Source: Streptomyces sp. HUAS MG91 | GTDB lineage: Bacteria; Actinomycetota; Actinomycetes; Streptomycetales; Streptomycetaceae | Direction of reading: 5' to 3' | NCBI RefSeq assembly: GCF_040529335.1 | Contig: NZ_CP159534.1 | Span: forward strand, 4,464,001 to 4,528,000 | Length of the DNA: 64,000 bases | Shown: piece after piece, positions 238 to 25,868 of the stretch | Position numbering within the stretch: position 1 is the first letter of the stretch | Layout: each line of letters opens with the position of its first letter | The notes under the pieces: model-generated | Told to the model about the DNA's origin: nothing | Seen by the model: the letters and a program-made list of their open reading frames with translations, nothing else | Database searches by the model: none | Made by a program: the position numbers and the translations under genes

Positions 238-504
238 ATGTCTCGCATCGCGAAGGCAGCCGCTGTCGCCCTCGGCACGGGTGCCGTGGTGATCAGCGGC
301 GCCGGTCTGGCCATGGCCGACGCGGGTGCCCAGGGCGCTGCCGCCAACTCGCCGGGCGTCCTGTCGGGCAACCTGCTCCAGGTCCCCGTCCACGTTCCGG
401 TCAACGCCTGCGGCAACACCGTGGACGTCATCGGCCTGCTGAACCCGGCGTTCGGCAACACCTGCGTGAACAGCGACGGCGGCGACGCCGGCTACGGCGG
501 CTGA
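238..504 (+). CDS. chpG: Short chaplin (ChpG-like), secreted amyloid-forming surface protein
   Basis: Chaplins are secreted, self-assembling hydrophobic proteins that coat aerial hyphae and spores and lower surface tension. This 88-residue protein has a signal peptide of about 27 residues ending near AMA, then one chaplin domain: SPGVLSGNLLQVPVHVPVN, the NACGNTVDVIGLLNPAFG core and NTCVN. The two conserved cysteines form the usual intradomain disulfide. The ATG at 238 is preferred over the in-frame GTG at 235 because AGGAG (227-231) is then spaced 6 nt. The C-terminus carries a Gly/Asp/Tyr extension (DGGDAGYGG) beyond the usual end. The symbol rests on its position next to melC, as chpG lies in S. 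coelicolor (from memory), and on length; identity as a chaplin is certain, the letter is not. Confidence 0.93.
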   Translation: MSRIAKAAAVALGTGAVVISGAGLAMADAGAQGAAANSPGVLSGNLLQVPVHVPVNACGNTVDVIGLLNPAFGNTCVNSDGGDAGYGG

Positions 505-527
505 CGCATCGCAGCGTACGCGGACCG

Positions 528-564
528 ACGAGGGCCCCCGGCACACGGTGCCGGGGGCCCTCGT
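528..564. terminator. Bidirectional hairpin terminator between chpG and melC2
   Basis: A perfect 17-bp inverted repeat with a 3-nt loop: arms 528-544 and 548-564, beginning ACGAGGGCCCCCGGC. It sits between the convergent chaplin and tyrosinase genes and lacks a long T run, as is common for Streptomyces terminators. Confidence 0.85.
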
Positions 565-578
565 GCGTCCCGCGACGG

Positions 579-1448
579 TCACACGTACCGGTACAGGCTC
601 TTGTGTTCGAGCATGTCGCGGATCGGTGTGTTCCAGGGCGTCATGGTGTCGCCCGCGATCAGGATCTTCTTGCGCTGCGCGTCACCGAGGCCGGGGCGCT
701 CGGCGGGCAGATAGGGCGCCGCGTCGGGGTGCCGCTCGTGCCACCGCGACCAGCACAGGTCGACGAAGGCGTGGTGCAGCCAGAACACGGGGTCGTTCAC
801 CGAACCGGCGCCCAGCATGTGGCCGCTCACCCAGCGGTGCACCCGGTTGTGGTTGTACCAGGTGCGGTCCCCGAGGCGGCTGGGCCAGCCCTCGAACGCG
901 TTGCGGAACCCGCTGGACGCCGTGGAGTTCCAGGGACTCGCGTCGTACGCGGACTCCCGCATCGCCGACTCCAGCTCGGCCTTGTCCGGCAGCTCGAGCG
1001 GGGCCTGCGGCCGCCCGAAGTCCCGCATCAGGAAGTCGCCGTCGGTCACGGCCACCGTGACGGTCCAGTGGCCGTGCGCGCGGGCGAACGGCCCGGTCGT
1101 CACCCGCCGGTCTCCGCCGCGGCCGTTGCCGCCGAGGAAGTCCTCGCCCCACAGCGAGGCGGCCGGCGTCCGGTCCGCCGTCCAGTCCCAGTACGGGACC
1201 GTGACCCCCGCGTCCACCTTCTGCAGGGCCCGTTCGAACTCCAGCAGGAACTTGCGGTGCCAGGGGAAGAACGACGGCGTCATGTGCGCGACGCGCAGAC
1301 CGCCGTCACCGTCCCCCTGGTAGAAGTCGATGTGCGTGCGCACGAAGTCGTCGTAGCGGCCGCTCTTCTTGACCGCAAGCACGGCGTCCACGAAGCGCCG
1401 CTTCTGCGCCTTGGTGAGCGTGTTCTGGTTCTGCCGGGTGTGCACCAT
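579..1448 (-). CDS. melC2: Tyrosinase MelC2 (type 3 copper monophenol oxidase)
   Basis: Tyrosinase oxidises tyrosine to dopaquinone, the first step to melanin. The 289-residue protein matches Streptomyces MelC2 along its whole length. CuA ligands are visible as H39 (RTHIDF), H55 (VAHMTPSF) and H64 (PWHRKF). CuB ligands lie in HNRVH (H200, H204) and in DPVFWLHHAFVD (H226). It has no signal peptide, which fits the known mechanism: MelC2 is exported bound to its Tat-signal partner MelC1, encoded 6 nt upstream. It is slightly longer than typical MelC2 proteins (about 273 residues) because of insertions around residues 105-130 and 190-197. Together with melC1 it forms an operon ending at the hairpin at 528-564. 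Confidence 0.96.
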   Translation of the reverse strand: MVHTRQNQNTLTKAQKRRFVDAVLAVKKSGRYDDFVRTHIDFYQGDGDGGLRVAHMTPSFFPWHRKFLLEFERALQKVDAGVTVPYWDWTADRTPAASLWGEDFLGGNGRGGDRRVTTGPFARAHGHWTVTVAVTDGDFLMRDFGRPQAPLELPDKAELESAMRESAYDASPWNSTASSGFRNAFEGWPSRLGDRTWYNHNRVHRWVSGHMLGAGSVNDPVFWLHHAFVDLCWSRWHERHPDAAPYLPAERPGLGDAQRKKILIAGDTMTPWNTPIRDMLEHKSLYRYV

Positions 1449-1454
1449 CGGCGC

Positions 1455-1874
1455 TCACACCTCCCCGGCGTGGTCGCGCAGCTCCTGGCCGCCGAGCTCG
1501 GCGACGGCCCCCCTCGCCGCGGCGAGAGGGGTGGCGTACGAGTCGTAGTGGTCGACCATGCTCAGGTACGAGCCGTCGGCCCGGCGCATGAGGTGCAGCG
1601 GCCGGCCGTCCACCATGACCTGCCAGGCGCCGCCCGCCCCGGCGGCCCGGCTGCCCGTGATCCGCCGCCCCCGGTACATCTCGTCGAACACCTCGGGCGC
1701 CGCGGCCGCTCCGGCCCGTGGGTCGGAGCGCTGCGGGCGGGGACGCATCCGTACGACGGCGACGGCGGTGGAGAGCGCCCCCAGAAGGACCAGGCCCGCG
1801 CCGCGCCGGGTCAGCAGTGCTCTCGCACCCGGCGCCCGGCCCGTGGGCAGGGGAAGTTGGGGATTCACGACCAT
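1455..1874 (-). CDS. melC1: Tyrosinase cofactor/caddie protein MelC1
   Basis: MelC1 chaperones apotyrosinase, delivers copper, and carries the Tat signal for export of the complex. The 139-residue protein starts at ATG 1874 behind a strong AGGAGG on the minus strand. Residues about 18-43 form a signal with a twin-arginine-like LTRRGAG segment and a hydrophobic core. The body carries the recognisable MelC1 pattern: FDEMYRGRRI, then VMVDGRPLHLMRRADGSYLS, MVDHYDSYATP and AARGAVAELGG. It has the Met and His residues implicated in copper handling. The stop lies 6 nt before the melC2 start, so the two are translationally linked. A frame that extends far upstream is not coding; codon bias and the ribosome-binding site both favour this start. 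Confidence 0.93.
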   Translation of the reverse strand: MVVNPQLPLPTGRAPGARALLTRRGAGLVLLGALSTAVAVVRMRPRPQRSDPRAGAAAAPEVFDEMYRGRRITGSRAAGAGGAWQVMVDGRPLHLMRRADGSYLSMVDHYDSYATPLAAARGAVAELGGQELRDHAGEV

Positions 1875-3446: not shown

Positions 3447-3950
3447 TCAGCCGCGGATGCGGCGGATGGGCAGAATGCAGTGGGCGGCCGCCGTCAGGGT
3501 CTCTTCGGCACCCGCGAACTTCTCCAGCTCGCCCTCGGCGACCGGCTGTCCGGGGGGAGCGGTGGGCCAGGGGCGGGTGGTGAAGACGAAGTACGCGCTG
3601 CCCCGCGCGTCGGCGGCCTCCAGCCACTCGGGGGGCACCTGGCACTGGGCGTTCAGCATCGGCATCGTGACGACGGCCTGGCCCGCCTCGACGAGCAGCG
3701 AGACCGGGAAGCTGGGATGCCGGGAACCGTCGTGGACCGTGGTGCCCAGGGTCAGCCCGTTGTTGAGCAGGAGCGCCCGCACGGCCGTCTCCGCGCCCTC
3801 GGGGCCCGCCGGGGAATCCCCCATGGAGTAGGCGAGGAGGAAAGGCATGTCGTCTTCCTCACCGACGTGTTCCCCACTCCAGGCGATGACAGCGAGGGTT
3901 CCCAGATCCGCTGCCCGAAACGTGGTGTCAATACTCGACGTTGAAGTCAC
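3447..3950 (-). CDS. Conserved actinobacterial protein of unknown function (DUF5949-like)
   Basis: A 167-residue soluble protein without a signal peptide. It has a hydrophobic strand-rich start (AADLGTLAVIAWSGEH), then DMPFLLAYSMGDSPAGPEGAE, and a C-terminal part with AGQAVVTMPMLNAQC and YFVFTTRPWP. The composition suggests a small alpha/beta protein. I associate it, from memory, with a Streptomyces family of unknown function (DUF5949). The start is ambiguous: the GTG at 3950 gives the full conserved N-terminus but has no good ribosome-binding site. ATG 3849 (MPFLLAY) is preceded by GAGGA at good spacing and would give 134 residues. It is convergent with the histidine-rich gene. Confidence 0.6.
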   Translation of the reverse strand: MTSTSSIDTTFRAADLGTLAVIAWSGEHVGEEDDMPFLLAYSMGDSPAGPEGAETAVRALLLNNGLTLGTTVHDGSRHPSFPVSLLVEAGQAVVTMPMLNAQCQVPPEWLEAADARGSAYFVFTTRPWPTAPPGQPVAEGELEKFAGAEETLTAAAHCILPIRRIRG

Positions 3951-4481: not shown

Positions 4482-4760
4482 TTACTTGCCGAGCGGAAGA
4501 CCGCCGAGCAGGTCGGTGGGGGCCGCGGCGCCGCCCGGGTTCAGCTGGTCGGTGGCGCCCGTCACGGTGTCCACCGCGCCGCCCTTCGGGTCGAGCAGGT
4601 TGCTGCTGACCGGCTGGGCGTCGAGCGTCGGCTGGCTGGCGATGGTGTCCAGGGCGCCGTTCAGGCTCGTGGGGGCGAGGTCCGAGGCAAAGGCGGGCGC
4701 GGCGGCACCGGCGATGACGAGGGAACCGGCGACAACGGCAGCGGCCTTCAAAGACTTCAT
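4482..4760 (-). CDS. Small secreted protein of unknown function
   Basis: A 92-residue protein beginning MKSLKAAAVVAGSLVIAGAA with cleavage near AFA-SD (residue 25). The mature part of about 67 residues is polar and uncharged-rich (LAPTSLNGALDTIASQPTLD, NLLDPKGGAVDTVTG, LGGLPLGK) with no Cys. It resembles the small secreted proteins often found beside chaplin genes, but no family or function is recognised. Good ATG start with AAAGGATAA upstream on the minus strand. About 120 nt separate it from the chaplin downstream, so the two may have separate promoters. Confidence 0.72.
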   Translation of the reverse strand: MKSLKAAAVVAGSLVIAGAAAPAFASDLAPTSLNGALDTIASQPTLDAQPVSSNLLDPKGGAVDTVTGATDQLNPGGAAAPTDLLGGLPLGK

Positions 4761-5017: not shown

Positions 5018-5731
5018 TTACGAGGTGGCGGGGGTCTGGGGGAGAGCCGGCGCCTGCGGGAGGGCCGGGGTCTGAGGAACGGCCGGGGCCTGGGGGACGG
5101 ACGGGGTCGCCGGGAGCGACGGCGTGGTCGCGGCGGGCAGCTGCGGCAGCGCGGGCAGGCCCGGCAGGTCGGGGGCCGGGAGCGCGCCGCTCAGGAGCGT
5201 GGCCGCGAGGACGTTGACCAGGCCGGTCACGACGGCGGGCGCCTGCGTGGGGAGCGCCTTGACGTCGCCGGACGTCGCGGACTTCACCAGCGCGTCGACC
5301 GCGGCCTGGAGCGCGGTCAGGGCCTCCGCCTGGACGTCCTTGACGGCGGGCGGTGCTTTCGCGTCGTCAGGAACCGCCGCGTCGGGAGCCTTCGGCACCG
5401 GAACCGCGGCGGCCTGCTCCTTCGCGGTGTCGATGGCGGACTTGACCGCGTCGGCGTGCTTCTGGGCCTCGTCCGCGGGCAGCTTGCCGTCCTTCGTCTT
5501 GAGGACGGCGTCGAGCAGGCCGGTGACCGGGGTCATGACGCCGGCGGTGTCCTGGAGGGTCTTGACCTGGTTGAGCAGGGTGGCGGCGTCGGGAGCGGCG
5601 GTGGATGACACAACCGTGCGGCTGGCGCGCTCGTCGGCGGAGTCCGCGGCGAACACGGGTGCCGCCGCACCGATCAGGAGGGACGCGCAGAGAGCGGAGG
5701 TCGCGATGCGCCGTACGGGCAGAGCAGGCAT
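5018..5731 (-). CDS. Secreted Ala/Pro-rich helical protein of unknown function
   Basis: A 237-residue protein. The signal peptide is MPALPVRRIATSALCASLLIG to about residue 29 (PVFA-AD). Residues about 45-165 are helical and Ala/Lys/Asp-rich (TLLNQVKTLQDTAGVMTPVT, DAQKHADAVKSAIDTAKEQA-like segments). The last 35 residues are a short Pro repeat, with alternating VPQAP, VPQTP, LPQAP and LPQTP units. This layout suggests a surface or wall-spanning stalk followed by a Pro-rich tail, but there is no sorting signal and no known domain. The start at ATG 5731 is supported by GAAGGGGAAAG upstream. It is flanked by chaplin genes and terminated at 4962-4999. Confidence 0.75.
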   Translation of the reverse strand: MPALPVRRIATSALCASLLIGAAAPVFAADSADERASRTVVSSTAAPDAATLLNQVKTLQDTAGVMTPVTGLLDAVLKTKDGKLPADEAQKHADAVKSAIDTAKEQAAAVPVPKAPDAAVPDDAKAPPAVKDVQAEALTALQAAVDALVKSATSGDVKALPTQAPAVVTGLVNVLAATLLSGALPAPDLPGLPALPQLPAATTPSLPATPSVPQAPAVPQTPALPQAPALPQTPATS

Positions 5732-5934: not shown

Positions 5935-5957
5935 GAGGAAGAGTCAGGCTCCGTGGG

Positions 5958-6197
5958 TCAGCTGTTGACGCAGCTGTTGCCGAACGCCGGGTTCAGCAGA
6001 CCGATGACGTTCACGGTGTTGCCGCAGACGTTGACCGGCACGTGCACGGGCACCTGCACGACGTTGCCCGACACGACGCCGGGGGAGTTGGTGGCGGCAC
6101 CCTGCGCGCCGCTGTCGGCGGCGGCGATGCCGGCGGTGCCGGCCACGGCGGCGGCGGCCATGGCGGAGAAGACGACTGCCTTCGCGGTACGCGACAT
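5958..6197 (-). CDS. chpF: Short chaplin (ChpF-like)
   Basis: A 79-residue chaplin with signal peptide [20 protein letters not shown] to about IAAA, then DSGAQGAATNSPGVVSGNVV, the QVPVHVPVN motif and the core NVCGNTVNVIGLLNPAFG followed by NSCVNS, with both cysteines. The start is ATG 6197: AAGGAG is 7 nt upstream, whereas the other in-frame ATG at 6203 is too close to it. The symbol follows its position between melC and the polysaccharide genes, as chpF in S. coelicolor (from memory). It is transcribed away from the gene at 6523, with a shared control region between them. Confidence 0.93.
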   Translation of the reverse strand: MSRTAKAVVFSAMAAAAVAGTAGIAAADSGAQGAATNSPGVVSGNVVQVPVHVPVNVCGNTVNVIGLLNPAFGNSCVNS

Positions 6198-6522
6198 GAA
6201 CATGCTCCTTGGGTCGTTCCGTACGGCCGGGACAGGCGCCCGGCTCGTGTGCAACGGACGACGCGCCAGAGAGTTTCGGCTCCGAAAGAGTGAATACCGA
6301 TTGGTTCGTTGAAGTGGATCGCGGAGTGTCGACACCGGGGGACCGGTAATTTCACAACTCCAACACACATCGTGTATGAAGTGGAACTCACTTTCTGGCC
6401 GCTATTGTGGGCCGCCCCCTGTGCAAGGGGTCTGGCCTCCGTGCCGCGGTTGGATAAGTGTGACTTTCTTATTTCCCGGGTGTTGTAGAGCGTCTGCCTC
6501 ATTCCTGAAAGGGACGCCGGCC
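6198..6522. promoter_or_regulatory. Divergent intergenic region between chpF and the polysaccharide locus
   Basis: About 325 bp with no convincing gene. Base composition is less GC-rich than the flanks, with AT-richer patches near 6280-6380 and 6450-6490 where promoters for the two divergent genes should lie. The in-frame extension of the downstream gene back to 6376 lacks codon bias and is probably untranslated leader. I could not assign a sigma-factor consensus by eye. Confidence 0.5.
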
Positions 6523-7629
6523 ATGCGTAATTCGAAAGGTTGTTTCCTGCGTCGCCTGACGGTGGGACTGCTGTCGCTGGCGGTGTTGCCCCCGCTGTGC
6601 CAGACGGCGTCGGCGAGCCCCTCGGCACCACCGGAGCCCGCGGCGGAGAAGCCCGCCCTCCCGTTCACCAGCCGCTACGACGCGGTGCTGCACGGCGGTT
6701 TCGTGCGCGCGGCGAACTCCGCCATCACGTGCCGGGGCGCGGCGTCGGCCAAGAACGTCGGCTGCGCCGAGGCGCGGGCGGGCGCGACGGCGGCCAACGG
6801 CGACTTCGACATGTTCTACACGGACGTCGACCGCGACCCGAACACCTACAACTCGACCCGCGCGGAGGTCCGCGTCCCCGAGGGGGCGCGGGTCACCTAC
6901 GCGCGCCTGTACTGGGGCGGCAACCTCCGCGTCGGTGAGCAGAAGCCCCCGCGCGACAACGGCCGTGTCCTGGTCTCGGAGCCCGGCGGCGAGTACAAGC
7001 AGGTGCTCGCCGACACCGTGGTCGGCCACCGGGTCGCCAACGGCGCGGACGCCTACCAGGCCTCGGCGGACGTCACCGATCTGGTGCGCTCCAGCGGGTC
7101 CGGCCTCTACACCGTGGCGCAGCTGAACGTCGCCATGGGGCGGACCGCCGCCGGGGCCTGGGGCGGGTGGACGCTCGTGGCCGCGTACGAGAAGCCGTCC
7201 GAGCCGCTGCGCCATCTGTTCCTGCGGGACGGCTTCGACACGTTCACCCGTGCCGCCTCCGCCCAGAAGGTGCACGTACCGGCCGCGTTCCCCGAGGGGG
7301 CGCGCGGCTACGCGGGCCTGGTCGCCTACAACGGCGACCGCGGCCGGACCGGTGACTCCCTGACCGTCTCGGCCGGCCGGGGCCGCCCGGTGGCGCTGTC
7401 CGACGGGGCCAACCCGGCGGACGACGTCCTCAACTCGACCATCGGCCAGCCGGGGACGCAGCCGGAGCGCGTCCCGGCCCACGACAACACCCTCGGCTAC
7501 GACTCCGACGTGTTCCCGCTCGACCGGGCCGTGGCCCGCGGCGGCGACGCGCTGGACTTCCGGCTGGCGTCGACCGGGGACCCGGCCTGGGCCGGGGTGC
7601 TCTTCGGCGCGGTCGACGCCCGGTCCTAG
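6523..7629 (+). CDS. Secreted beta-sandwich protein resembling the N-terminal domain of DUF11-type surface proteins
   Basis: A 368-residue secreted protein (signal RNSKGCFLRRLTVGLLSLAV to about residue 32, TASA-SP). The body contains FDMFYTDVDRDPNTYNSTRA, then VTYARLYWGGNL and SADVTDLVRSSGSGLYTVAQ. This is a pattern I know from the N-terminal beta-rich region of large actinobacterial proteins with DUF11 or prealbumin-like repeats. Here the domain stands alone, without repeats, sorting signal or membrane anchor. One Cys pair (CRGA and GCAE) could be a disulfide. ATG 6523 precedes the signal peptide directly. It is the first gene of the polysaccharide run; the next gene begins 47 nt on. Function unknown; a matrix or adhesion role is inference. 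Confidence 0.75.
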   Translation: MRNSKGCFLRRLTVGLLSLAVLPPLCQTASASPSAPPEPAAEKPALPFTSRYDAVLHGGFVRAANSAITCRGAASAKNVGCAEARAGATAANGDFDMFYTDVDRDPNTYNSTRAEVRVPEGARVTYARLYWGGNLRVGEQKPPRDNGRVLVSEPGGEYKQVLADTVVGHRVANGADAYQASADVTDLVRSSGSGLYTVAQLNVAMGRTAAGAWGGWTLVAAYEKPSEPLRHLFLRDGFDTFTRAASAQKVHVPAAFPEGARGYAGLVAYNGDRGRTGDSLTVSAGRGRPVALSDGANPADDVLNSTIGQPGTQPERVPAHDNTLGYDSDVFPLDRAVARGGDALDFRLASTGDPAWAGVLFGAVDARS

Positions 7630-7676: not shown

Positions 7677-8819
7677 ATGCATGTGACGTCCGCACCCTTG
7701 CCGCCGCACGTTCTGCACGTGACCCAACCGGTCGACGGCGGAGTGGCGCGTGTGGTGGCCGACCTGGTGCGCATGCAGCGCGCCGCGGGGATGCAGGTGT
7801 CGGTGGCCTGCCCCGCCTCGGGCGAGCTTCCCGGCCGGCTCGCGGCCCTCGGCTGCGAGGTCCTGGAGTGGGAGGCCTCGCGCGCGCCGGGCAGGCAGGT
7901 GCCGGGCGAGTGCCGCCGGCTGGCCCGGCTCGTGCGCCGCGTTCGGCCGCAGCTCATCCACGCGCACAGTGCCAAGGCGGGCCTGGTCAGCCGGCTCGTC
8001 GTACGGGGCCGGATCCCCACCGTCTTCCAGCCGCACGCCTGGTCGTTCGAGGCGGTCGGCGGGCTCGGCGCCCGGCTGGCCCTGACCTGGGAGCGGCGCG
8101 GGGCGCGCTGGGCGTCCCGGCTGATCTGCGTCAGCGGCGCCGAACAGCGCACCGGGAGCAGCCACGGCATCGAGGCGCCGTGGCGGCTCGTCCCGAACGG
8201 CGTCGACCTGGAGCGGTTCCGCCCCGAGGGGCCCGCCGCGGAGGCCGGGGCCGGCGCGGGCCCGCTCGTCGTGTGCGTGGGACGGCTGTGCCGGCAGAAG
8301 GGCCAGGACGTCCTCGTCGAGGCATGGCCGGACGTGCTCGCCACGGTGCCGGGGGCGCGGCTTGTCCTGGTCGGCGACGGCCCCGACCTGGACCCGCTGC
8401 GGGCCGCGGCACCGCCGTCGGTCCGCTTCGCCGGGGCGGTCGCCGATCCCGCCCCCTGGTACCGGGCCGCGGACCTGGTCGTCCTGCCCTCGCGGTGGGA
8501 GGGCATAGCGCTGGCTCCGCTGGAAGCCATGGCCTGCGGGAAGCCGGTGCTGCTCACGGACGTGGACGGAGCCCGCGAGAGCCTGCCGCCCCCACTGGCC
8601 CGCCGGTGCCTGGCCCCGCCGGACGACCCCGCGGCCCTCGCCGGCGCCCTGACCGGGCTGCTGCGCGACGCCGACGCGCTGCGCGACCTGGGCCGGCAGG
8701 CCCAGGGCCATGTGCACGCGCACCACGACGTACGGCGGACGGCCGGAGCCGTCACGGACGTCTATCGCGAACTTCTGGGTCTGGAGACCTCCGAGTGCAG
8801 AGAGCCGATCGCGACGTGA
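7677..8819 (+). CDS. Family 4 glycosyltransferase
   Basis: A 380-residue GT-B fold glycosyltransferase. The N-terminal Rossmann half starts LPPHVLHVTQPVDGGVARVV and carries HAHSAKAGLVSRL. The C-terminal half has LVVCVGRLCRQKGQDVLVEA, LVLVGDGPDL and the nucleotide-sugar binding segment LPSRWEGIALAPLEAMACGKPVL in two parts, with the E-x7-E motif typical of GT4 enzymes. It likely adds a sugar from a nucleotide donor to a lipid-linked intermediate on the cytoplasmic face. Its 3' end overlaps the sugar transferase gene, so the two are translationally coupled. Donor sugar cannot be told from sequence. Confidence 0.92.
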   Translation: MHVTSAPLPPHVLHVTQPVDGGVARVVADLVRMQRAAGMQVSVACPASGELPGRLAALGCEVLEWEASRAPGRQVPGECRRLARLVRRVRPQLIHAHSAKAGLVSRLVVRGRIPTVFQPHAWSFEAVGGLGARLALTWERRGARWASRLICVSGAEQRTGSSHGIEAPWRLVPNGVDLERFRPEGPAAEAGAGAGPLVVCVGRLCRQKGQDVLVEAWPDVLATVPGARLVLVGDGPDLDPLRAAAPPSVRFAGAVADPAPWYRAADLVVLPSRWEGIALAPLEAMACGKPVLLTDVDGARESLPPPLARRCLAPPDDPAALAGALTGLLRDADALRDLGRQAQGHVHAHHDVRRTAGAVTDVYRELLGLETSECREPIAT

Positions 8820-10285: not shown

Positions 10286-10288
10286 TCC

Positions 10289-17090: not shown

Positions 17091-18458
17091 TCAGGAGCGG
17101 CGCTGGAACCAGTCGAACCGCAGGCACAGCTTGCCGCCGAGCCAGTGCTCGATCCAGTCGCCGAGGTCGACCGGCGAACACTGCGGGGGCTGCGTCGGGT
17201 TGGTGGGCTCGGTCGGGTTGACGGGCGTGTCCGGCTTGTCGCGGCCGCTCAGCGCCGCCCGGTAGACCGCCGACGCCTTCGGGTTCTTGTCGCACTGCCA
17301 CACGCCGTGCGGGCAGTAGTCCGTCAGCGTGTTGTAGAGCGGCTTGTGCTCGTCCATCCAGGCGAGCATGCGCCGCATGTACTCGGCGTTGTCGCCGTTG
17401 CGGAACAGACCCCACTCCGGGTACGAGATCGGCTTCTTGTGCTCCGCCGCGAAGTCGACCTGGGCCTGGAGCCCGTACGGCTCGGACACCTGCTCGTCGA
17501 AGGACTTGTTCTCCGGCTGGTCGTACGAGTCCATGCCGACGATGTCGACGACGTCGTCACCGGGGTAGCACTCGGTCCACGGCACGGCGTCCCGGCCCCG
17601 GCTGGGCGTGAAGTCGAAGCGGAACTTCTGTCCCGGCACCGACCGCATCACCGTCACGATCCGTTTCCAGTACGTCTTCCAGGACTCGGGATCGGGACCG
17701 CACCGGTGGGTGTACGTGGTGCCGTTCATCTCCCAGCCGAGCACCACCACGGTGTCCGGCACGTCCAGGTCGACCAGGTGCTCGGCCAGGGCGCGGTAGT
17801 GCTGGTCGAAGTCGCCCCGCGCGCCCTGTTCGAGCAGCTTGCGCACCTCGGCGTCCGGGACGCCCTCCTCGTTGCGCTCCAGCATCGGCACGTTGAGGAC
17901 GAAGAGCCGGTCGTCGCGCTCCTTGCGCCACTCGGCCCAGCTCTCCAGGAACGACTGGTCGCCCTCGATGTTGCTCCACCGGTCGCCGGGCAGATAGGTG
18001 TGCCCGACCCGCAGATCGGCTCCGCCGAGCCACTGCGACAGCTGAGCCATCCGGGTCACGCCCCGGGGCCCGTAGTCCAGGTAGGCGCCGAACGCGGGGA
18101 ACTTGGGCGTGCCCTTGCCGGGCTCCTCGCTGGGCGACGCGGACGTGGTCGGTGTGCCGGTCGGGGGGCCGGTCGGCGTGGCGGACGGCACCGGGTCCTG
18201 ACTGCCTGACACGCTCGGCTCCGGCGCGGGCTGTTCGCTCGCGCCGGCCGGGTCCGGGGCCGTGGGGCTCGGCTCGTCCGAGCCGGACGGCCACCACGGG
18301 ACGGGGTTCGTTCCGGTGGTCGGGGTCGGGTCGGGGCGCGGACTGGCGTCCGCCGATTCCGTGGTCACGGATCCTGACGCGACCATCAGCGAGACCAGGA
18401 CCCCCGCGGTGATCAGCGGAAGTCGTCTGTTCTTCGTCCAACGGCGTTCTGCGGCCAT
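17091..18458 (-). CDS. Secreted glycoside hydrolase, GH26 (beta-mannanase)-like
   Basis: A 455-residue exported protein. Residues 1-40 form an N-terminal signal or anchor (RRLPLITAGVLVSLMVASGS). Residues about 40-115 are a Pro/Ser/Thr-rich linker. The catalytic TIM-barrel runs from about 120 to 400. The general acid is E243 in VVLGWEMNG and the nucleophile is E348 in ISYPEWG, both placed as in GH26. The end carries two Cys (QCSPVDLG, KLCLRF) and a short Thr/Pro spacer. It could trim or remodel the polymer made by the flanking genes. It is transcribed towards the biosynthetic run and away from the ATP-grasp gene, sharing a 132-bp control region with the latter. Confidence 0.85.
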   Translation of the reverse strand: MAAERRWTKNRRLPLITAGVLVSLMVASGSVTTESADASPRPDPTPTTGTNPVPWWPSGSDEPSPTAPDPAGASEQPAPEPSVSGSQDPVPSATPTGPPTGTPTTSASPSEEPGKGTPKFPAFGAYLDYGPRGVTRMAQLSQWLGGADLRVGHTYLPGDRWSNIEGDQSFLESWAEWRKERDDRLFVLNVPMLERNEEGVPDAEVRKLLEQGARGDFDQHYRALAEHLVDLDVPDTVVVLGWEMNGTTYTHRCGPDPESWKTYWKRIVTVMRSVPGQKFRFDFTPSRGRDAVPWTECYPGDDVVDIVGMDSYDQPENKSFDEQVSEPYGLQAQVDFAAEHKKPISYPEWGLFRNGDNAEYMRRMLAWMDEHKPLYNTLTDYCPHGVWQCDKNPKASAVYRAALSGRDKPDTPVNPTEPTNPTQPPQCSPVDLGDWIEHWLGGKLCLRFDWFQRRS

Positions 18459-18590: not shown

Positions 18591-19868
18591 ATGCTCGACC
18601 CCTGTGTCCCGGTGGTGCTGCTGAGGATCGACCCCAACCCCTTCCACCACGGAACCCTGGGAGCGGTGCGGTCCCTTGGGCGCTGCGGCGTCGAGGTCCA
18701 CGTGGCGGCCGAGGCGGACCGCAGCCCGGTCGCCCGCTCGCGCTTCGTCAGCCAGATGCATCCGCCACCGCCGCCGGGGGCCCCGCTGAGCGAGATCGCC
18801 GGAGCCCTGCGGCGGACCGCGGCCCGGATCGTCCGCCCGGCGGTGCTGATCCCGATGGACGACGCCGGGGCCGTCGCCGTGAGCCGGCTGGGCGAGGAGC
18901 TGTCCGGGACGTTCCTCCTGCCGGACCAGCCGGGGCACCTGGCCGAACGCGTCGCCGACAAGGCGCTGCTGCCCGAGCTGTGCCGCGAAGCGGGCATCGC
19001 CCACCCGGCTACCGTGGAGCCGCGCGACGAGTCGGAGGCGGCCGCCGCGGTCGGCGACCTCGGCGCGCCCGTCGTGGCCAAGTGGAGCCGCCCGTGGCTG
19101 CTGCCCCCGGACGCCGGGCTGCGCAGCACCTGCCTGATCAGCACCCCGCACGAGGCCAGGAGCCTGTACCGCAGGGGCCTGGGCACCGGCAGCGCGCTGC
19201 TGCTCCAGAAGCGTCTGGCACCCGGCGGCGGTGACTGGTTCTGCCACGGGTACGTCGACGGGCGCGGCCGGCTGCACGGGGGCGGCGCGGGCAGCAAGCA
19301 CCAGGCGTGGCCGCGCGGCGCCGGCCTGACCGCCGTGGGCCGCTGGGCCCCGGTCGCCGAACTCCAGTCCATGGTCGAGCGTCTGATCGCCGGGCTGCGC
19401 TACCGGGGCATCTTCGACATCGACTTCCGCGTCGACCCGGAGACCGGCCGGTACTGCCTGCTGGACTTCAACCCCCGGCCTGGGGCGCAGTTCCGGCTGT
19501 TCGCGGACGGCGCCGGCCTGGACGTCGTACGGGCCCAGTACCTCGACCTGACGCACCAGCGGCTGCCCGCCGGACACGCCCTGCCGGGGCGCACCTTCGT
19601 CGTGGAGAACTACGCGCCGCTGTCCGCGCTCCGGGCCCTGGTGTCCGCCGCGCTGCCCGCCCAGCGCAGCTCCCCGCTGCGCGAACTGGCCTGGCACGCC
19701 GCGGACGACCCGGCCCCCGCGCGGCACATGGCCGCCGAGTGGTCCCGGCACGCGGCGCGCCGTCTGCTGCGCCGGTCCGCGCCACCGTCCGCGGCCCTCC
19801 CCGACCACCGCACCGAACCTCCTGTCGCCGCACGCACCACCGAGGCCGAACGAAAGGCGAGCTGCTGA
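18591..19868 (+). CDS. ATP-grasp ligase family protein
   Basis: A 425-residue ATP-grasp enzyme. The pre-ATP-grasp domain begins VPVVLLRIDPNPFHHGTLGA. The ATP-binding part includes DKALLPELCREAGIAHPATV, APVVAKWSRPWL and ALLLQKRLAPGGGDWF. The metal-binding segment is GIFDIDFRVDPETGRYCLLD followed by FNPRPGAQF, the expected Asp/Asn pair of the family. It resembles the carbamoyl-phosphate-synthase-like ligases of actinomycete surface clusters; it should join a carboxylate to an amine or similar acceptor with ATP. It overlaps the flavoprotein gene by one base, so the two probably act on one substrate. Substrate unknown. Confidence 0.82.
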   Translation: MLDPCVPVVLLRIDPNPFHHGTLGAVRSLGRCGVEVHVAAEADRSPVARSRFVSQMHPPPPPGAPLSEIAGALRRTAARIVRPAVLIPMDDAGAVAVSRLGEELSGTFLLPDQPGHLAERVADKALLPELCREAGIAHPATVEPRDESEAAAAVGDLGAPVVAKWSRPWLLPPDAGLRSTCLISTPHEARSLYRRGLGTGSALLLQKRLAPGGGDWFCHGYVDGRGRLHGGGAGSKHQAWPRGAGLTAVGRWAPVAELQSMVERLIAGLRYRGIFDIDFRVDPETGRYCLLDFNPRPGAQFRLFADGAGLDVVRAQYLDLTHQRLPAGHALPGRTFVVENYAPLSALRALVSAALPAQRSSPLRELAWHAADDPAPARHMAAEWSRHAARRLLRRSAPPSAALPDHRTEPPVAARTTEAERKASC

Positions 19869-21178
19869 TGTACGACCTGCTGATCGTGGGGGCGGGCCCG
19901 TACGGCTTGTCCATCGCCGCGCACGCCGAGGCCAGAGGGCTGCGCACCGCGGTCTTCGGCAAGCCGATGGAGTCGTGGCGGTACGCCATGCCCCGCGGCA
20001 TGTTCCTCAAGTCGGAGCCGTGGGCGTCCAACCTCTCCGCGCCCGGCGCGGCCTTCCGCCTGGAGCAGTACTGCGCCGGCCTCGGCACGACCGCCCGGCA
20101 CGGACACCCCATCCCCGTGGAGACGTTCGCGGAGTACGGGCTGTGGTTCGCGCGCCAGGCGGTGACACACCGGGACGAGCGGATGATCAGGCGGATCGAC
20201 GCGGCGCCCGAGGGCTTCACGCTGGAGACCGAGGACGGCGAACCCCTGCGCGCCAGGGCCGTCGCGCTGGCCACCGGAGTGCTGCCGTACCTGAACCTCC
20301 CCGAAGCCCTGCGCGGGCTGACGGAGGATCACGTCACGCACAGCAGCGGCCACAGCGACCTGGACCGCTTCGCCGGGGGCGACGTCACCGTGGTCGGCGG
20401 CGGGCAGGCGGCCCTGGAGACCGCGGCGCTGCTCGCCGAGCAGTCGACCCGGGTACGGCTCGTCGCCCGCGCCCCCGCACTGGCCTGGAACAGCGTCCCG
20501 CCGCCCTGGGAGCGCCCCTGGTGGAAACGGCTGCGCGCACCGCACAGCGGCCTCGGCTGCGGCTGGCGCAACTGGTTCTACGCGGAGCGGCCGGGTGTCT
20601 TCCGCCGACTGCCCGACCGCACCCGGGCCGGCATCTCGGAGACCGCGCTGGGCCCCGCGGGCGCCTGGTGGATCAGGGACCGGGTGGCGGCGGCCGGCAT
20701 CGACATCCGGCTCGGGCGCACGGTCGTGGAGGCCCGGCTCGCGTCCGGGCGGGTGCGGGTGCGCACCGCGGGGCCGGGGGCGGACGCGGAGGAGTTCACG
20801 ACCGATCACGTCATCGCGGCCACCGGATTCGAGGCGAGCTGCGCCCGGATGACGGTCCTCGCCCCACGGCTGCGGAACCTGCTCGCGCCGCACCCCGAGG
20901 GCCCGCCTCGGGTGGGCCGGGGCTTCGCGTCCGCCTATCCCGGGCTCTTCCTCGCCGGTCTGGTCACGGCCGCCGACTTCGGTCCCGCGATGCGGTTCGT
21001 CCACGGGGCGTCCTACACCGCGCCCGCGCTGGTCGACGGGGTCGAGCGGCATCTCGGGCGGCAGCCGGTGCGGGGCGGCCCGGTGGTTCCCGGGGGCAGG
21101 CGGCACGCGCCGGAGGCGGTCGCCGTGGCGGCGGTGGCCGACGTCGGGCGGCCGGGGGCCGGTGGCCCGTTGGGGTGA
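19868..21178 (+). CDS. FAD/NAD(P)-binding flavoprotein, monooxygenase-like
   Basis: A 436-residue two-dinucleotide-fold flavoprotein. The FAD motif is at the N-terminus (YDLLIVGAGPYGLSIAAHAE, GxGxxG). The NAD(P) motif is near residue 175 (VTVVGGGQAALETAALLAEQ). A late ATG motif reads HVIAATGFEAS. This is the layout of lysine/ornithine N-hydroxylase-like and related monooxygenases, but substrate residues cannot be read by eye. It is translationally coupled to the ATP-grasp gene. The last 40 residues are low-complexity Gly/Arg/Ala-rich. A role in modifying a small building block of the surface polymer is inference. Confidence 0.82.
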   Translation: MYDLLIVGAGPYGLSIAAHAEARGLRTAVFGKPMESWRYAMPRGMFLKSEPWASNLSAPGAAFRLEQYCAGLGTTARHGHPIPVETFAEYGLWFARQAVTHRDERMIRRIDAAPEGFTLETEDGEPLRARAVALATGVLPYLNLPEALRGLTEDHVTHSSGHSDLDRFAGGDVTVVGGGQAALETAALLAEQSTRVRLVARAPALAWNSVPPPWERPWWKRLRAPHSGLGCGWRNWFYAERPGVFRRLPDRTRAGISETALGPAGAWWIRDRVAAAGIDIRLGRTVVEARLASGRVRVRTAGPGADAEEFTTDHVIAATGFEASCARMTVLAPRLRNLLAPHPEGPPRVGRGFASAYPGLFLAGLVTAADFGPAMRFVHGASYTAPALVDGVERHLGRQPVRGGPVVPGGRRHAPEAVAVAAVADVGRPGAGGPLG

Positions 21179-21262: not shown

Positions 21263-21364
21263 CTGCCTTCCTCCCAGCCGTCGGCGTCACGCCGTGGGAA
21301 GGCAGCCTTCTTCCGCGGCTTCCTCTGAGGGTCGGGAAGAGCTTCGCGGAGTTCTTCCCGACCC
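21263..21364. terminator. Two consecutive hairpin terminators between convergent genes
   Basis: First hairpin: CTGCCTTCC at 21263-21271 with 21297-21305, enclosing a small CGGCGT/ACGCCG stem. Second hairpin: perfect 12-bp arms 21329-21340 and 21353-21364 (GGGTCGGGAAGA). They separate the flavoprotein gene from the convergent chaplin gene. Confidence 0.8.
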
Positions 21365-21385
21365 GACACGCGCCCCTCGCGGCAC

Positions 21386-22066
21386 TCAGCGCCTCGGGGC
21401 GCTCGACCTGCGGTACAGGATGCCGCCCCCGACGAGCAGCCCGGCGCTGGTGGCCGCGGCGGCCAGCAGGTTCGGGTCGGCCCCGGTGTCGGCGAGCCGT
21501 TCGCGCGCCTCGGGCACCCGTACCTCGGCCGGTGCCGCCGCCGGTGACAGCACGTCACGTCCTGGACCCGGCACGACGGTCTGCGGCGCGGGGGGCACGG
21601 CCCGGTCGGTGGGCGGCTGCGCGGGGGTGCTGGGAGTCGTGGGCGGCGTGGCCGGGGTGGGAGTCGTGGGCGTGGCCGGGGTGCCCGGGGGCAGGTGCGG
21701 CGCGGGCGGCAGGTGCTCCTCGACGGGTGCCGGGGCGGCCGACGCGTCACCGGAGCCCGCGCACGCGTTGCCCGTCGACGGGTTGAGCGCGCCGACCACG
21801 TCGGCGGTGTTCCCGCAGAGGTTCAGGCCGATGTCCACGGGCGCCTGCACCGAGTTCCCCGACAGCAGACCCGGGGAGTGCGCGGTGGTCTCGGACCGGG
21901 GCGTGTCGCCGTAACCCTGCGCCTCGTGCGACGGGGCGTCGGCCGCCGACGCGGACGCGCCCGCGTCCCCCTCGTCACCGGTCAGGGCCGCGGCGGCGCC
22001 GGGCATGGAGAGCATGCCCGTCGCTGCCGCGGCGGCCATGACACCGATCTTCAGTGCCTGCCTCAA
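21386..22066 (-). CDS. Long, wall-anchored chaplin with a single chaplin domain and LAXTG sorting signal
   Basis: A 226-residue protein. The signal peptide covers about 1-27 (MRQALKIGVMAAAAATGMLS and onward). One chaplin domain follows at about 60-105: HSPGLLSGNSVQAPVDIGLN, then LCGNTADVVGALNPSTGNAC with both cysteines. A Pro/Thr-rich wall-spanning linker (PATPTTPTPATPPTTPSTPA) follows. The C-terminus has LADTG, a hydrophobic segment (AAAATSAGLLVGGGILY) and RRSSAPRR. LAXTG is the motif of class E sortases, which attach long chaplins to peptidoglycan in Streptomyces. The long chaplins of S. coelicolor (ChpA-C) have two chaplin domains; this one has only one. Neighbours are a short chaplin and rodlins. 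Confidence 0.92.
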   Translation of the reverse strand: MRQALKIGVMAAAAATGMLSMPGAAAALTGDEGDAGASASAADAPSHEAQGYGDTPRSETTAHSPGLLSGNSVQAPVDIGLNLCGNTADVVGALNPSTGNACAGSGDASAAPAPVEEHLPPAPHLPPGTPATPTTPTPATPPTTPSTPAQPPTDRAVPPAPQTVVPGPGRDVLSPAAAPAEVRVPEARERLADTGADPNLLAAAATSAGLLVGGGILYRRSSAPRR

Positions 22067-22116
22067 AGCGTTTCCCTTCCTGCTGGGGCGTCGTGCTCGA
22101 AAGTGCTCGAAAGCGC

Positions 22117-22153
22117 GGCCGACCCTGGAACCCGAGGGTGTCCAGGGTCGGCC
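22117..22153 (-). terminator. Hairpin terminator downstream of the short chaplin
   Basis: A perfect 13-bp inverted repeat, GGCCGACCCTGGA at 22117-22129 with 22141-22153, directly after the chaplin stop at 22176 on the minus strand. Confidence 0.8.
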
Positions 22154-22175
22154 GGTGGCTGAGCGCCGGGGTATT

Positions 22176-22409
22176 TCAGACGTTGGCGCAGGTGTTGCCG
22201 AAGGCCGGGTTCAGCAGCGCGATGACGTTGACGCTGTTGCCGCAGACGTTGACCGGCACGTGGACCGGGACCTGCACGACGTTGCCGGACAGGACGCCCG
22301 GGGAGCCCACGGCCGCACCCTCGGCGCCGGCGTCGGCGAACGCGGGGGCGGCCATGCCGAGGGCCATGATGACGCCGGCGACGACGGTGGCGCTCTTCTT
22401 CAGAGACAT
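22176..22409 (-). CDS. chpD: Short chaplin (ChpD-like)
   Basis: A 77-residue chaplin. The signal peptide runs MSLKKSATVVAGVIMALGMA to about AFA, followed by DAGAEGAAVGSPGVLSGNVV, the VPVHVPVN motif and NVCGNSVNVIALLNPAFG with NTCANV; both cysteines are present. Start ATG 22409 has AAGGAG 6 nt upstream. It lies between the long chaplin and a rodlin, the arrangement of chpA-chpD-rdlA in S. coelicolor (from memory), which is the only basis for the letter. It carries its own terminator at 22117-22153. Confidence 0.93.
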   Translation of the reverse strand: MSLKKSATVVAGVIMALGMAAPAFADAGAEGAAVGSPGVLSGNVVQVPVHVPVNVCGNSVNVIALLNPAFGNTCANV

Positions 22410-22561
22410 GTCTCTCTCCTTATTTCCGAGAAATATGAATGAGGTGCCAGTTCGAAAGGGGATCACTTTCTCGTCCGGCCCTCGGGAAGGAAAACGAGGC
22501 AACCGCGGGCGAGGAAACTGTGTGCCCGCTTAATTGATGAAACCGTGCGGCCATTCGGGCA

Positions 22562-22610
22562 CAAAAAAGCTCGGACCGCCCGCGATCCGAGGAAGCGGGC
22601 GGCCCGAGCT
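22562..22610 (-). terminator. Intrinsic terminator with T run for the first rodlin gene
   Basis: Arms 22568-22583 and 22595-22610 (GC-rich stem with one mismatch) followed on the minus strand by six T. This is one of the few terminators here with a clear T tract. Confidence 0.88.
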
Positions 22611-22627: not shown

Positions 22628-23038
22628 TCAGCCGTTCGCGACGCCGTTGCCGGAGAGGACCGGGATGTCGCTCAGGATGTGCGACAGCGGCTCGTCGCCC
22701 TTGGCCTGCGTCGAGTTCTCCGTGCACTGCTGGTTCTGCGGGGCCGACAGGATCGGGATGTCCTGGGCGGCGATCGGCACGACACCGATCAGCGAGCCGG
22801 CGTTGGCCTTGACCGGCAGGCCGATGCACGGCTTGTTCAGCGACCCCTGGACCAGGCCGAGCTGCGGGCTCATGTCACCCTCGGTCATGGAGTTGCCGAA
22901 GGCCTGCTTCGCGTCGTTGCCGCTGAGCGAGGTGGTGCCGCCGTCGTCACCGAGGGCGAGGGCCGACGGGGCCGCGGCCGCGGAGACGCCGACGACGGAA
23001 ACGGCGACCGCTGCGGCAGCCATAGCCTTCTTGAGCAT
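22628..23038 (-). CDS. rdlA: Rodlin, secreted fibril-organising surface protein
   Basis: Rodlins organise chaplin fibrils into the paired rodlets of aerial hyphae and spores. The 136-residue protein has a signal peptide ([20 protein letters not shown] to about residue 29, ALA) and a mature part with [56 protein letters not shown] and [18 protein letters not shown]. Two conserved cysteines are present. It is divergent from the second rodlin with 246 bp between the starts. The A/B naming is arbitrary, by position next to the chaplins. Confidence 0.93.
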
Positions 23039-23284: not shown

Positions 23285-23695
23285 ATGATGAAGAAGGCTA
23301 TGGCTGCCGCAGCGGTCGCCGCCTCCGTCGTCGGTGTCTCGGCGGCCGTGGCTGCGCCCGCGATGGCGATCGGCAACGACGGCGGCACCACCTCGCTCAG
23401 CGGCAACGGCGCCGAGCAGGCGTACGGCAACTCCGCCACGTACGGCAACATGAGCCCGCAGATGGCGCTCATCCAGGGCTCGCTGAACAAGCCCTGTGTC
23501 GGCCTGCCGGCCAAGGTCAACGCCGGTTCGCTCATCGGTGTCGTGCCGGTGTCGCTCCAGGACATCCCGGTCCTGTCGGCGCCGCAGAACCAGCAGTGCA
23601 CGGAGAACTCGACCCAGGCCAAGGGCGACGAGCCGCTGTCGCACGTCCTGGACGACATCCCGGTTCTTTCCGGCAACGGCGCCGGCAACAACTGA
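23285..23695 (+). CDS. rdlB: Rodlin, second copy, divergent from the first
   Basis: A 136-residue rodlin closely similar to the divergent neighbour. The signal peptide begins [20 protein letters not shown], and the mature part has [56 protein letters not shown] and [23 protein letters not shown] 23285 or 23288 may be the start; AAGGGGAA lies just upstream. The two divergent genes share the 23039-23284 interval, which should hold back-to-back developmental promoters. It ends at a hairpin at 23713-23741. Confidence 0.93.
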
Positions 23696-23864: not shown

Positions 23865-24944
23865 ATGAGGAAAAGGTTTCTTCAGGGCGGCCGCAAAAGG
23901 CTGGCGATCGGCGCTCTCGCGCTTGGATTTCTGGCCTTTTCCGGTGCCGCGGCCGGACAGGTGGCGGGTGCTCTGCCCGCACAGGTGGATGCCTTCAGCG
24001 GCCTGAAGAATCGTCCCGCCGGAGGCAGCGGCACCAATATTCTCCTGATGGGAACGGACAGCCGCGACACCATCACCCGTGCGGAGAAGGAGAAATTCCA
24101 CGCCGGTGGCGTCGCCTGCAATTGCAGTGACTCGATGATGCTGGTCCACCTGTCGCGGAAGCACGACCGGGTCAGCGTGATCAGCCTGCCGCGGGACTCG
24201 CTCACCGAGATCCCCGCGTACCAGGAGCCCGACGGCACGACCCGTGAGGCGCACCCGGCGAAGATCAACGCCGCGTACGCGGAAGGCGGCGCACCGCTCG
24301 CCGTGGCGACGGTCGAATCCATGACCGGGATGCGCGTCGACCACTTCCTGCAGATCGACTTCCGCCGGTTCATCGACGGCGTCGACGCGGTCGACGGCGT
24401 GACCGTGTGCACCAAGCGCCGGCTCTCGGACTCGGCCACGAAGCTGAACCTCGCCCCCGGGCGCCACCGCCTCGCCGGTGGACCGTCCCTCCAGTACGTG
24501 CGCTCGCGCCATCTGGACACCAGCGCCGACCTGGGACGCGTACAGCGCCAGCAGCGGTTCCTCGTCAACGCCCTGCGCGGCGCCGGGCTGAAGAAGACCC
24601 TCGCCGACCCGGCGAAGGCGGCCGGCCTGGCCAGGACGCTGCTCGGCTCGGCCTCGGTCGACCAGGGCTTCACCGCGTCCGATCTCATCGCCCTCGCCCG
24701 GGAACTGCGGCGCATCCCGCTCAAGGACATGGAGTTCGGGACGGTGCCCATCGCCGGGTTCAACGAGCTGATCCCGGACGTGGGCTCCACGCTGCGCTGG
24801 GACCGGGAGCGCGCCGACCGGCTCTTCGCGACGCTCCGCGAGGACCGCCAGGTGACGAAGCCCGGCTCCCGGACCCAGCCTCTCGACCCGCCGCGCCTCC
24901 AGGACCAGCCCGTCGTGCGCGGGGACAAGTACGCCTGCGCGTGA
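23865..24944 (+). CDS. LytR-CpsA-Psr (LCP) family glycopolymer transferase
   Basis: LCP proteins attach lipid-linked glycopolymers (teichoic acids, polysaccharides) to peptidoglycan. The 359-residue protein has an N-terminal membrane anchor (about 10-32, LAIGALALGFLAFSGAAAGQ). The LCP domain contains NILLMGTDSRDTI, HLSRKHDRVSVISLPRDS (catalytic Arg and Asp region), KINAAYAEGGAPLAVATVES, DHFLQIDFRRFIDGVDAVDG and YVRSRHLDTSADLGRVQRQQ. It lies between the second and third rodlins in the same direction, close to a polysaccharide locus, so it could anchor that polymer to the wall. ATG 23865 with GGAGAG upstream. Confidence 0.93.
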   Translation: MRKRFLQGGRKRLAIGALALGFLAFSGAAAGQVAGALPAQVDAFSGLKNRPAGGSGTNILLMGTDSRDTITRAEKEKFHAGGVACNCSDSMMLVHLSRKHDRVSVISLPRDSLTEIPAYQEPDGTTREAHPAKINAAYAEGGAPLAVATVESMTGMRVDHFLQIDFRRFIDGVDAVDGVTVCTKRRLSDSATKLNLAPGRHRLAGGPSLQYVRSRHLDTSADLGRVQRQQRFLVNALRGAGLKKTLADPAKAAGLARTLLGSASVDQGFTASDLIALARELRRIPLKDMEFGTVPIAGFNELIPDVGSTLRWDRERADRLFATLREDRQVTKPGSRTQPLDPPRLQDQPVVRGDKYACA

Positions 24945-25058
24945 CGTGCGCCCTCGGCGCGCTGGGCCGAACGGGTCGCGCTTCGCAACCGTCCGATTCC
25001 TCATCAGTTGATCAAGTGTGGCTCCGCAACCGGAGTTCGTTCAGTGAAGGGAAAACAC

Positions 25059-25469
25059 ATGAAGCAGAAGCTGTGGGCCTCCGCAACGCTCGCCGTGTCC
25101 GTCGCCGGTCTGTCGGCCGTGGCCGCCCCGCAGGCGCTGGCCATCGGTGACGACGGCGGCACGACGTCCATCAGCGGCAACGGTGCGGAGCAGGCGTACG
25201 GGAACTCCGCGACCCACGGCGACATGAGCCCGCAGCTCGGCCTCGTCCAGGGCTCGCTGAACAAGCCCTGCATCGGTCTGCCGGCCAAGGCCAACCTCGG
25301 TTCGCTCGTCGGCGTCGTGCCGATCGCCGTCCAGGACATCCCGGTCCTGTCGGCGCCGCAGAACCAGCAGTGCACCGAGAACTCCACCCAGGCCAAGGGC
25401 GACGAGCCGCTGTCGCACGTCCTGGACGACATCCCGGTCCTGTCCGGCAACGGTGCCGCGAACCACTGA
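25059..25469 (+). CDS. Rodlin, third copy
   Basis: A 136-residue rodlin with the same length as the other two. The signal begins [20 protein letters not shown] and ends near ALA. The mature part has [56 protein letters not shown] and [20 protein letters not shown]. The mature part resembles both others, while its signal peptide and upstream sequence are different, so it may have its own expression pattern. ATG 25059 has GAAGGGAAAA upstream. It ends at a strong terminator. Confidence 0.93.
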
Positions 25470-25523
25470 ATGACCTGAGGGGAGGGCAGCCGCCGCTGCG
25501 CGGCTGCCCCTCTTCCGGCCCCG

Positions 25524-25572
25524 GGCACGACGACGGCGGCGGATCACTTCGATCCGCCGCCGTCGTCGTGCC
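25524..25572. terminator. Very long perfect hairpin terminator
   Basis: A 22-bp perfect inverted repeat with a 5-nt loop (25524-25545 and 25551-25572), beginning GGCACGACGACGGCGG. A weaker stem (GGGCAGCCG/CGGCTGCCC) precedes it near 25486-25508. Serves the convergent rodlin and secreted-protein genes. Confidence 0.88.
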
Positions 25573-25580
25573 GTGGGGTC

Positions 25581-25868
25581 CTACTGGACCGAGGGGAGCG
25601 CGTTCGTCACCGGCGCCACCAGGTCGGTGAGCTGGTGCAGTTCGTTCAGCCGGTTGAGCCCGCCGAGCTGGGCCGTGGTGCTGGGCACCCCCGCACGCTG
25701 CTCCTCGGGGATCGCCATCGTCGACACCGAGTCGAGCGTCGCGGTCGGGGAGATGGCTTCGCCGTCACCGCCGAGCGGAAGGGGAGCGGCACCGGCCGTC
25801 GGCACCGCGATCGCGGTGGCACCGACGGCGAGCAGGACGGCGGTCATGGCGCGTCGAGTTGAGGTCAT
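25581..25868 (-). CDS. Small secreted protein of unknown function
   Basis: A 95-residue protein with a signal peptide (MTSTRRAMTAVLLAVGATAI, cleavage near AGA-AP at about residue 28). The mature part has PLPLGGDGEAISPTATLDSV, then QLGGLNRLNELHQLTDLVAP and VTNALPSVQ, an amphipathic Leu-rich end without Cys. It resembles other small secreted proteins encoded near chaplins and rodlins, but no family is recognised. ATG 25868 with AGGGG upstream. It closes the surface-protein island. Confidence 0.72.
   Translation of the reverse strand: MTSTRRAMTAVLLAVGATAIAVPTAGAAPLPLGGDGEAISPTATLDSVSTMAIPEEQRAGVPSTTAQLGGLNRLNELHQLTDLVAPVTNALPSVQ

Follow-up and report, generated by a model that had tools for sequence, protein, structure and literature searches.

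A conserved Wzx/Wzy exopolysaccharide locus set among the chaplin and rodlin genes of Streptomyces

The window analyzed here is a 64,000-nucleotide stretch of the Streptomyces sp. HUAS MG91 genome (NZ_CP159534.1, positions 4,464,001 to 4,528,000), and its positions 238-25469 hold four chaplins, three rodlins and the melanin genes melC1 and melC2. Twelve genes lie between the second and third chaplin, from a DUF3344 gene through a flavoprotein gene, with a GH26-like hydrolase gene on the opposite strand. Judged from sequence, the run that extends from a family 4 glycosyltransferase (GT4a) to an acyltransferase, together with the hydrolase facing it, is one conserved Wzx/Wzy exopolysaccharide locus; it is a real locus of a known kind, and its linkage to the coat genes is striking yet not obligate. 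The initial annotation of this DNA had listed five chaplins, of which only four were found (both by PF03777 on the scanned proteins and by searching all six frames of the window for the chaplin motif); its three rodlins all score above the NF041022 cut-off, and the melanin genes (MelC1 and tyrosinase) and an LCP-family transferase, placed between two rodlins, are present as described. The features, with fractions referring to the 89 related loci introduced below, are:

238..504, + strand: short chaplin (PF03777, 7.7e-30)
579..1448, - strand: tyrosinase MelC2 (PF00264, 5.8e-40)
1455..1868, - strand: tyrosinase cofactor MelC1 (PF06236, 4.7e-33)
3447..3950, - strand: DUF5949 protein (PF19374, 2e-74), beside the chaplin cluster in several relatives too
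4482..4760, - strand: sec92, small secreted protein of 92 residues (53/89 loci)
5018..5731, - strand: sec237, Ala/Pro-rich secreted protein of 237 residues (44/89 loci; no Pfam match)
5958..6203, - strand: short chaplin (PF03777, 5.3e-29 on open reading frame 5958-6368; start inferred from translation)
6523..7629, + strand: secreted DUF3344 protein (PF11824, 9.3e-10)
7677..8819, + strand: GT4 glycosyltransferase a, GT4a (PF13692, 6.5e-36)
8795..10285, + strand: polyprenyl glycosylphosphotransferase, the initiating transferase (PF02397, 1.9e-58; TIGR03025, 335.4 bits, cut-off 295.6)
10289..11671, + strand: Wzy-type polymerase (Wzy_C PF04932, 4.6e-18)
11668..13347, + strand: MurJ/MviN-type flippase (PF03023, 1.8e-62)
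13337..14119, + strand: CE4 polysaccharide deacetylase (PF01522, 3.9e-29)
14116..15255, + strand: GT4 glycosyltransferase b, GT4b (PF13439, 1.7e-26)
15252..15923, + strand: Wzz-like chain-length protein (PF02706, 20.0 bits, cut-off 25.5; TIGR01006, 9.9e-07, below cut-off)
15923..17053, + strand: tandem-GNAT acyltransferase, FemX fold (Acetyltransf_6 match)
17091..18458, - strand: secreted GH26-like glycoside hydrolase (PF02156, 3.7e-07, above cut-off)
18591..19868, + strand: ATP-grasp ligase-like protein (no Pfam match; structure model pLDDT 78.8)
19868..21178, + strand: FAD/NAD(P) oxidoreductase or monooxygenase-like flavoprotein (PF07992, 8.7e-18; PF13434, 1.2e-14)
21386..22066, - strand: long chaplin (PF03777, 1.1e-18) with a C-terminal LADTG sortase-like signal read in the sequence
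22176..22409, - strand: short chaplin (PF03777, 2.1e-29 on open reading frame 22176-22502)
22628..23038, - strand: rodlin (NF041022, 220.6 bits, above cut-off)
23285..23695, + strand: rodlin (NF041022, 224.8 bits)
23865..24944, + strand: LCP-family transferase (PF03816, 1.4e-40)
25059..25469, + strand: rodlin (NF041022, 216 bits on open reading frame 25008-25469)

Profile matches place an initiating transferase, flippase, Wzy polymerase, chain-length protein and glycosyltransferases together in the run. The Wzy-like locus had been called complete, and this stands for the initiating transferase, two GT4 enzymes, flippase, Wzy_C protein, deacetylase and acyltransferase; the Wzz-like assignment is weak, although the gene is kept in 87 of 89 related loci. 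The tight overlaps remarked on earlier are also seen: in the window, neighboring genes of the series from GT4a to acyltransferase either overlap or are almost contiguous. Median gaps across this series in related loci are -14 to +3 bases, as expected for one operon, and the share of gaps under 30 bases is lowest for Wzy to flippase (56 of 88) and highest for deacetylase to GT4b (89 of 90). A sigma-70 promoter and terminator scan of window positions 5900-22600 returned no promoter-like sites and two terminator-like sites, the latter not above shuffles.

The enzymes of the run conserve family-specific motifs. TFDDG is present in 91 of 91 deacetylase relatives and SHxxxH in 89 of 91; we take these to be the metal motifs of CE4 (NodB) enzymes. 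No signal peptide was seen by eye in the deacetylase. In the GH26-like protein, W[EQ][MF]NG (84/85 relatives) and PEWG (83/85) presumably carry the two catalytic glutamates of the GH26 family. The acyltransferase required a fold search because its sequence profile matched no PDB chain at E 0.1, and this search assigned it a tandem GNAT fold of the FemX type, as in the FemABX aminoacyltransferases. The model of the ATP-grasp-like protein resembles the PurK, biotin carboxylase and amino-acid ligase folds.

The best NCBIfam match of the Wzy_C protein, TIGR03097, describes a putative O-glycosylation ligase of the exosortase A system, and the protein could in principle act as a ligase that attaches oligosaccharides to secreted coat proteins, in place of a polymerase. 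This is very improbable, because the Wzz-like partner kept in nearly all loci fits polymerization, and the match (43.8 bits) falls far below its cut-off of 188. The GT4 enzymes likewise find their best match in a model of the XrtA/PEP-CTERM system (TIGR03088), below cut-off, and exosortase and PEP-CTERM models are absent at E 0.01 among 20 window proteins.

The polymerase is found in 110 of 150 genomes of the same genus (E<=1e-20), at a single place in each; named species among the matches listed include S. antibioticus, S. canus and S. ipomoeae. The best initiating-transferase locus per genome was taken for 100 genomes, comprising 99 of the 110 polymerase-positive genomes and one (G010) with no polymerase in its locus, L118; besides the window's own, ten polymerase-positive genomes fall outside this set. 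Eleven loci shorter than 17 kb, five of them with a short chaplin, were excluded, which leaves 89 as the counting base. The core genes from GT4a to the acyltransferase each occur in 84-89 of these loci, the GH26-like gene in 85, the ATP-grasp gene in 55, the DUF3344 gene in 47 and the flavoprotein gene in 45. The last three co-vary across the loci and form an accessory module; together with the GH26-like gene they lie between the same chaplins and recur in relatives, although the initial annotation does not mention any of these four.

Comparison of gene order in other Streptomyces bears out the physical linkage of the run and the chaplins. Short chaplins are found in 69 of the 89 loci, rodlins in 44 and either in 70. 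Given 3-16 PF03777 chaplins per genome in all 55 genomes tested (37 of the same genus, 14 of other genera of the family and 4 of another family, f17), simple arithmetic puts the chance of a short chaplin in a random 20-kb stretch at about 2%, and at most about 5%. In a second sample, drawn from named genomes and skewed toward close relatives (the best 80 of at least 574 confirmed stretches), a short chaplin occurs in 55 of the 59 stretches of at least 21 kb. Of the 89 loci, 37 have short chaplins on both sides of the run, and 31 of these 37 also have rodlins downstream; chaplins and rodlins lie upstream only in 10, chaplins alone upstream in 6, a chaplin between the acyltransferase and GH26 genes in 14, and other layouts make up 3. 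The tblastn queries were window chaplins only, and a six-frame motif scan served as a check. It found chaplin repeats in 68 of 69 loci called linked and in one of the 19 called unlinked (L053, with a two-repeat long chaplin missed by tblastn).

The locus extends beyond the genus, as seen in 16 loci from five other genera of the family (g3, g7, g10, g11, g14) and four from f17. All four g7 loci have chaplins and rodlins close by, and the six-frame scan recovered chaplin repeats in each. The other twelve loci of the family keep the run, with no chaplin or rodlin found within about 20 kb. Those of f17 hold seven of the eight core genes in slightly altered order, plus the GH26-like, ATP-grasp and flavoprotein genes; the acyltransferase was matched in one of the four, and no chaplin was found within about 20 kb. 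The six-frame scan of the 16 outgroup loci other than those of g7 gave a single, spurious-looking match (L154); its motif was built on Streptomyces chaplins and f17 chaplins are divergent (best E 1.6e-24 to 3.8e-6), so near chaplins in f17 loci may be overlooked. On a FastTree phylogeny with local support (Wzy, deacetylase and GT4b; 110 rows), the linked/unlinked label requires at least 8 changes against 29.8 in shuffles, and still 8 with L053 called linked. Rooted on the unlinked outgroups, the tree suggests to us a history of one gain and about seven losses.

Such a history also fits hitchhiking, in which an ordinary exopolysaccharide locus became a neighbor of chaplins a single time and has since been inherited in that position, without being functionally tied to the aerial coat. 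Consistent with this, the run is kept without a nearby chaplin in other genera, and other neighbors of the area (sec92, DUF5949) persist as well. Against it, chaplins stay near although their side and order vary between loci, and the link is kept in 75 of the 94 rows of the genus and g7 (76 with L053). Hitchhiking is a possible explanation, though an unlikely one.

Co-occurrence, when considered as proof of coupling, was rejected: 80 of the 150 genomes have polymerase and rodlins, 30 the polymerase only, 32 rodlins only and 8 neither, so that the two are independent (Fisher p=0.40, kinship ignored), as hitchhiking would also have it. The full locus occurs without rodlins in 21 genomes, and in 16 of these no short chaplin lies close to it either. 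Twelve coat-gene stretches were taken from genomes without the polymerase. Two of these (L240, L243) carry DUF5949, sec92, chaplins and rodlins in window order with none of the run between; three (L239, L241, L249) keep chaplins, rodlins and sec92 together, and four (L244, L247, L248, L250) chaplins and rodlins, all with the run absent. L242 retains an isolated GT4a match, L246 has a chaplin only, and in L245 GT4a and DUF3344 stand at the edge of a 5-kb contig, where loss is uncertain. Since polymerase-less genomes keep chaplin-rodlin clusters, coat clusters seem to have lost the run while persisting themselves; judging by their genes, such genomes presumably still form a sheath.

It had been proposed that the chaplin-rodlin sheath is anchored by the glycan or assembled together with it. 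Linkage agrees with this proposal, and the run-less clusters and the independence of rodlins and polymerase speak against an obligate tie. In its strong form, the idea makes the glycan indispensable to the sheath as an anchor or scaffold, with the nearby LCP enzyme joining the glycan to the wall; this form draws on the position of the run between chaplins and on the CslA glycan, which is reported, in the part of the source available, to work with chaplins in attachment, anchoring fimbriae (PMC5972031). We consider it improbable, in view of the same run-less clusters and independence and of the LCP gene, which is present in 3 of the 10 loci where the stretch is long enough to show it. The LCP enzyme was accordingly dropped as ligase for the glycan and is probably not a core member. 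Because some relatives keep the coat genes without the run and others carry the run elsewhere, the locus and the coat genes look like possible partners, not parts of one machine.

Regulation was compared using a motif, CAACC-N16-GTTGA, which we guess to be a sigma-BldN promoter. It was derived from upstream regions of rodlins and chaplins, the same regions later scored, and the shuffles keep single-base content only. At a 1% shuffle threshold it precedes 68% of 82 rodlins and 23% of 169 chaplins, compared with 5% of 98 GT4a, 2% of 52 DUF3344, 6% of 85 GH26 and 0 of 55 ATP-grasp genes; at 5% the figures are 85% and 40%, compared with 10%, 19%, 18% and 4%. Some of the DUF3344 hits look like reverse readings of the site that belongs to the divergent chaplin. 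Shared regulation of the run with rodlins and chaplins was therefore rejected, and the rarity of the motif suits hitchhiking. In the window the motif scores highest before the rodlins at 25059 and 23285, and its absence is weak evidence because three of the four window chaplins also lack it. Before melC1 (25 upstream regions) it occurs in 36% and 52% at the two thresholds.

Taken as a whole, a role of the glycan in the coat is the likeliest reading, and one to which we give somewhat better than even weight. We infer the sugars, the acyl donor, the timing and the surface role from gene content, order, conservation, linkage and predicted fold, as observed at the locus. A sugar-1-phosphate would be loaded on undecaprenyl phosphate and extended by the two GT4 enzymes; a cytoplasmic deacetylase would free the amine of an N-acetyl sugar, and to this amine the FemX-fold enzyme would add an acyl or aminoacyl group as a cap or decoration. 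Flipping and polymerization would follow, and the secreted GH26-like enzyme would trim the polymer. The product may cover aerial hyphae or spores next to the chaplins and rodlins and adjust cohesion, as HfsH and HfsK do in the Caulobacter holdfast, with a sheath that would not depend on the glycan. The deacetylated, acylated glycan proposed earlier is compatible with this evidence and is sharpened by the FemX fold.

Several observations weigh against a coat role: chaplin and rodlin genes persist where the run is absent, in 19 of the 89 loci the run has neither a short chaplin nor a rodlin close to it, few glycan genes are preceded by the rodlin/chaplin promoter motif, and the FemX fold does not tell the acyl donor. 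In addition, deletion of the wps-3 locus of Actinoplanes missouriensis (AMIS_58080-58180), which has a similar parts list and is transcribed during sporangium formation, gave no sporangium phenotype according to the published report, whose text does not contain the word chaplin (PMC13390465). By parts list, wps-3 shares Wzx/Wzy/Wzz, GT4, a deacetylase, a BioF2-like acetyltransferase and an FAD monooxygenase with the window locus, but differs in a longer Wzz, aminotransferase and dioxygenase genes and another flavoprotein family.

The holdfast (Hfs) system shares the initiating transferase, deacetylase, FemX-like tandem-GNAT acyltransferase near the CE4 deacetylase and the export of an oligomer carried on a lipid; holdfast precursors are the presumed substrates of both HfsH and HfsK, as far as the available text goes (PMC5362036). 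The likeness to HfsK is one of predicted fold, and window proteins score 136.9 of 750 and 45.3 of 400 bits on the HfsE and HfsH NCBIfam models, far below the cut-offs for orthologues. Unlike Hfs, the window locus adds the GH26-like enzyme, ATP-grasp protein and flavoprotein. MatAB (SCO2962/2963; PNAG-like) and CslA/GlxA (SCO2836; beta-1,4) also make Streptomyces surface glycans, but by synthase-type enzymes at other loci, distinct from this lipid-linked pathway in the accounts available. More speculatively, and with rather low probability, the locus could make a further surface glycan beside these, holdfast-like, whose amino sugars are deacetylated and then FemX-capped with an amino acid, the ATP-grasp protein and flavoprotein supplying or altering the cap, as a matrix for chaplins and rodlins on aerial hyphae. 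If so, the coat cluster, whose sheath is described mainly as a protein layer in the sources as available, would encode a protein-plus-glycan composite. Should the product indeed cover aerial hyphae, an overlooked glycan may account for part of the rodlet and hydrophobicity phenotypes of model strains, and the natural species with and without the run offer a ready comparison.

We take the S. coelicolor order to be chpG-melC-chpF-[SCO2706-2715]-chpA-chpD-rdlAB, and SCO2704, from gene order, to be presumably the orthologue of sec237 or sec92. In the open-licence library searched, papers since 2014 make no mention of SCO2706-2710, and papers since 2006 mention none of SCO2711-2715 except SCO2713, which serves there as a control RNA. 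The locus may be undescribed, within the open-licence papers of the years searched. Loss of ArgR raises chaplin, rodlin and SCO2704 transcripts, in the part of the study available (PMC5839063).

The small protein sec92, which has no family match in profile scans of the window proteins, also adjoins chaplins in stretches without the glycan run. Its upstream region (to about 4880 in the window) contains GTTTCC-N13..15-TCGTT[AG] in 54 of 59 loci, which looks like an ECF-type (extracytoplasmic function) promoter. The motif is found in no GT4a, DUF3344, ATP-grasp, GH26, sec237, rdl1, rdl2 or initiating-transferase upstream region, and in 1 of 76 and 9 of 78 chaplin upstream regions. Between the divergent GH26 and ATP-grasp genes (window about 18459-18590), an element around TATGACTGAGTGTCAGT (an ACTGA-CAC-TCAGT inverted repeat) recurs in other loci, and TATGACTG occurs in this intergenic region in 27 of 85 of them; the element is a possible operator. 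Nine relatives hold one in-stretch TGA in their Wzy matches (G084, G136, G132, G124, G097, G133, G085, G127, G120). melC1 lies near the locus in 29 of 89 loci, with the tyrosinase genes in differing layouts, including the L107-L111 group. Just past the rodlins, at window positions 26904-28124, is an alginate-lyase-family protein (PF05426, 1.1e-13) that could act on a surface glycan.

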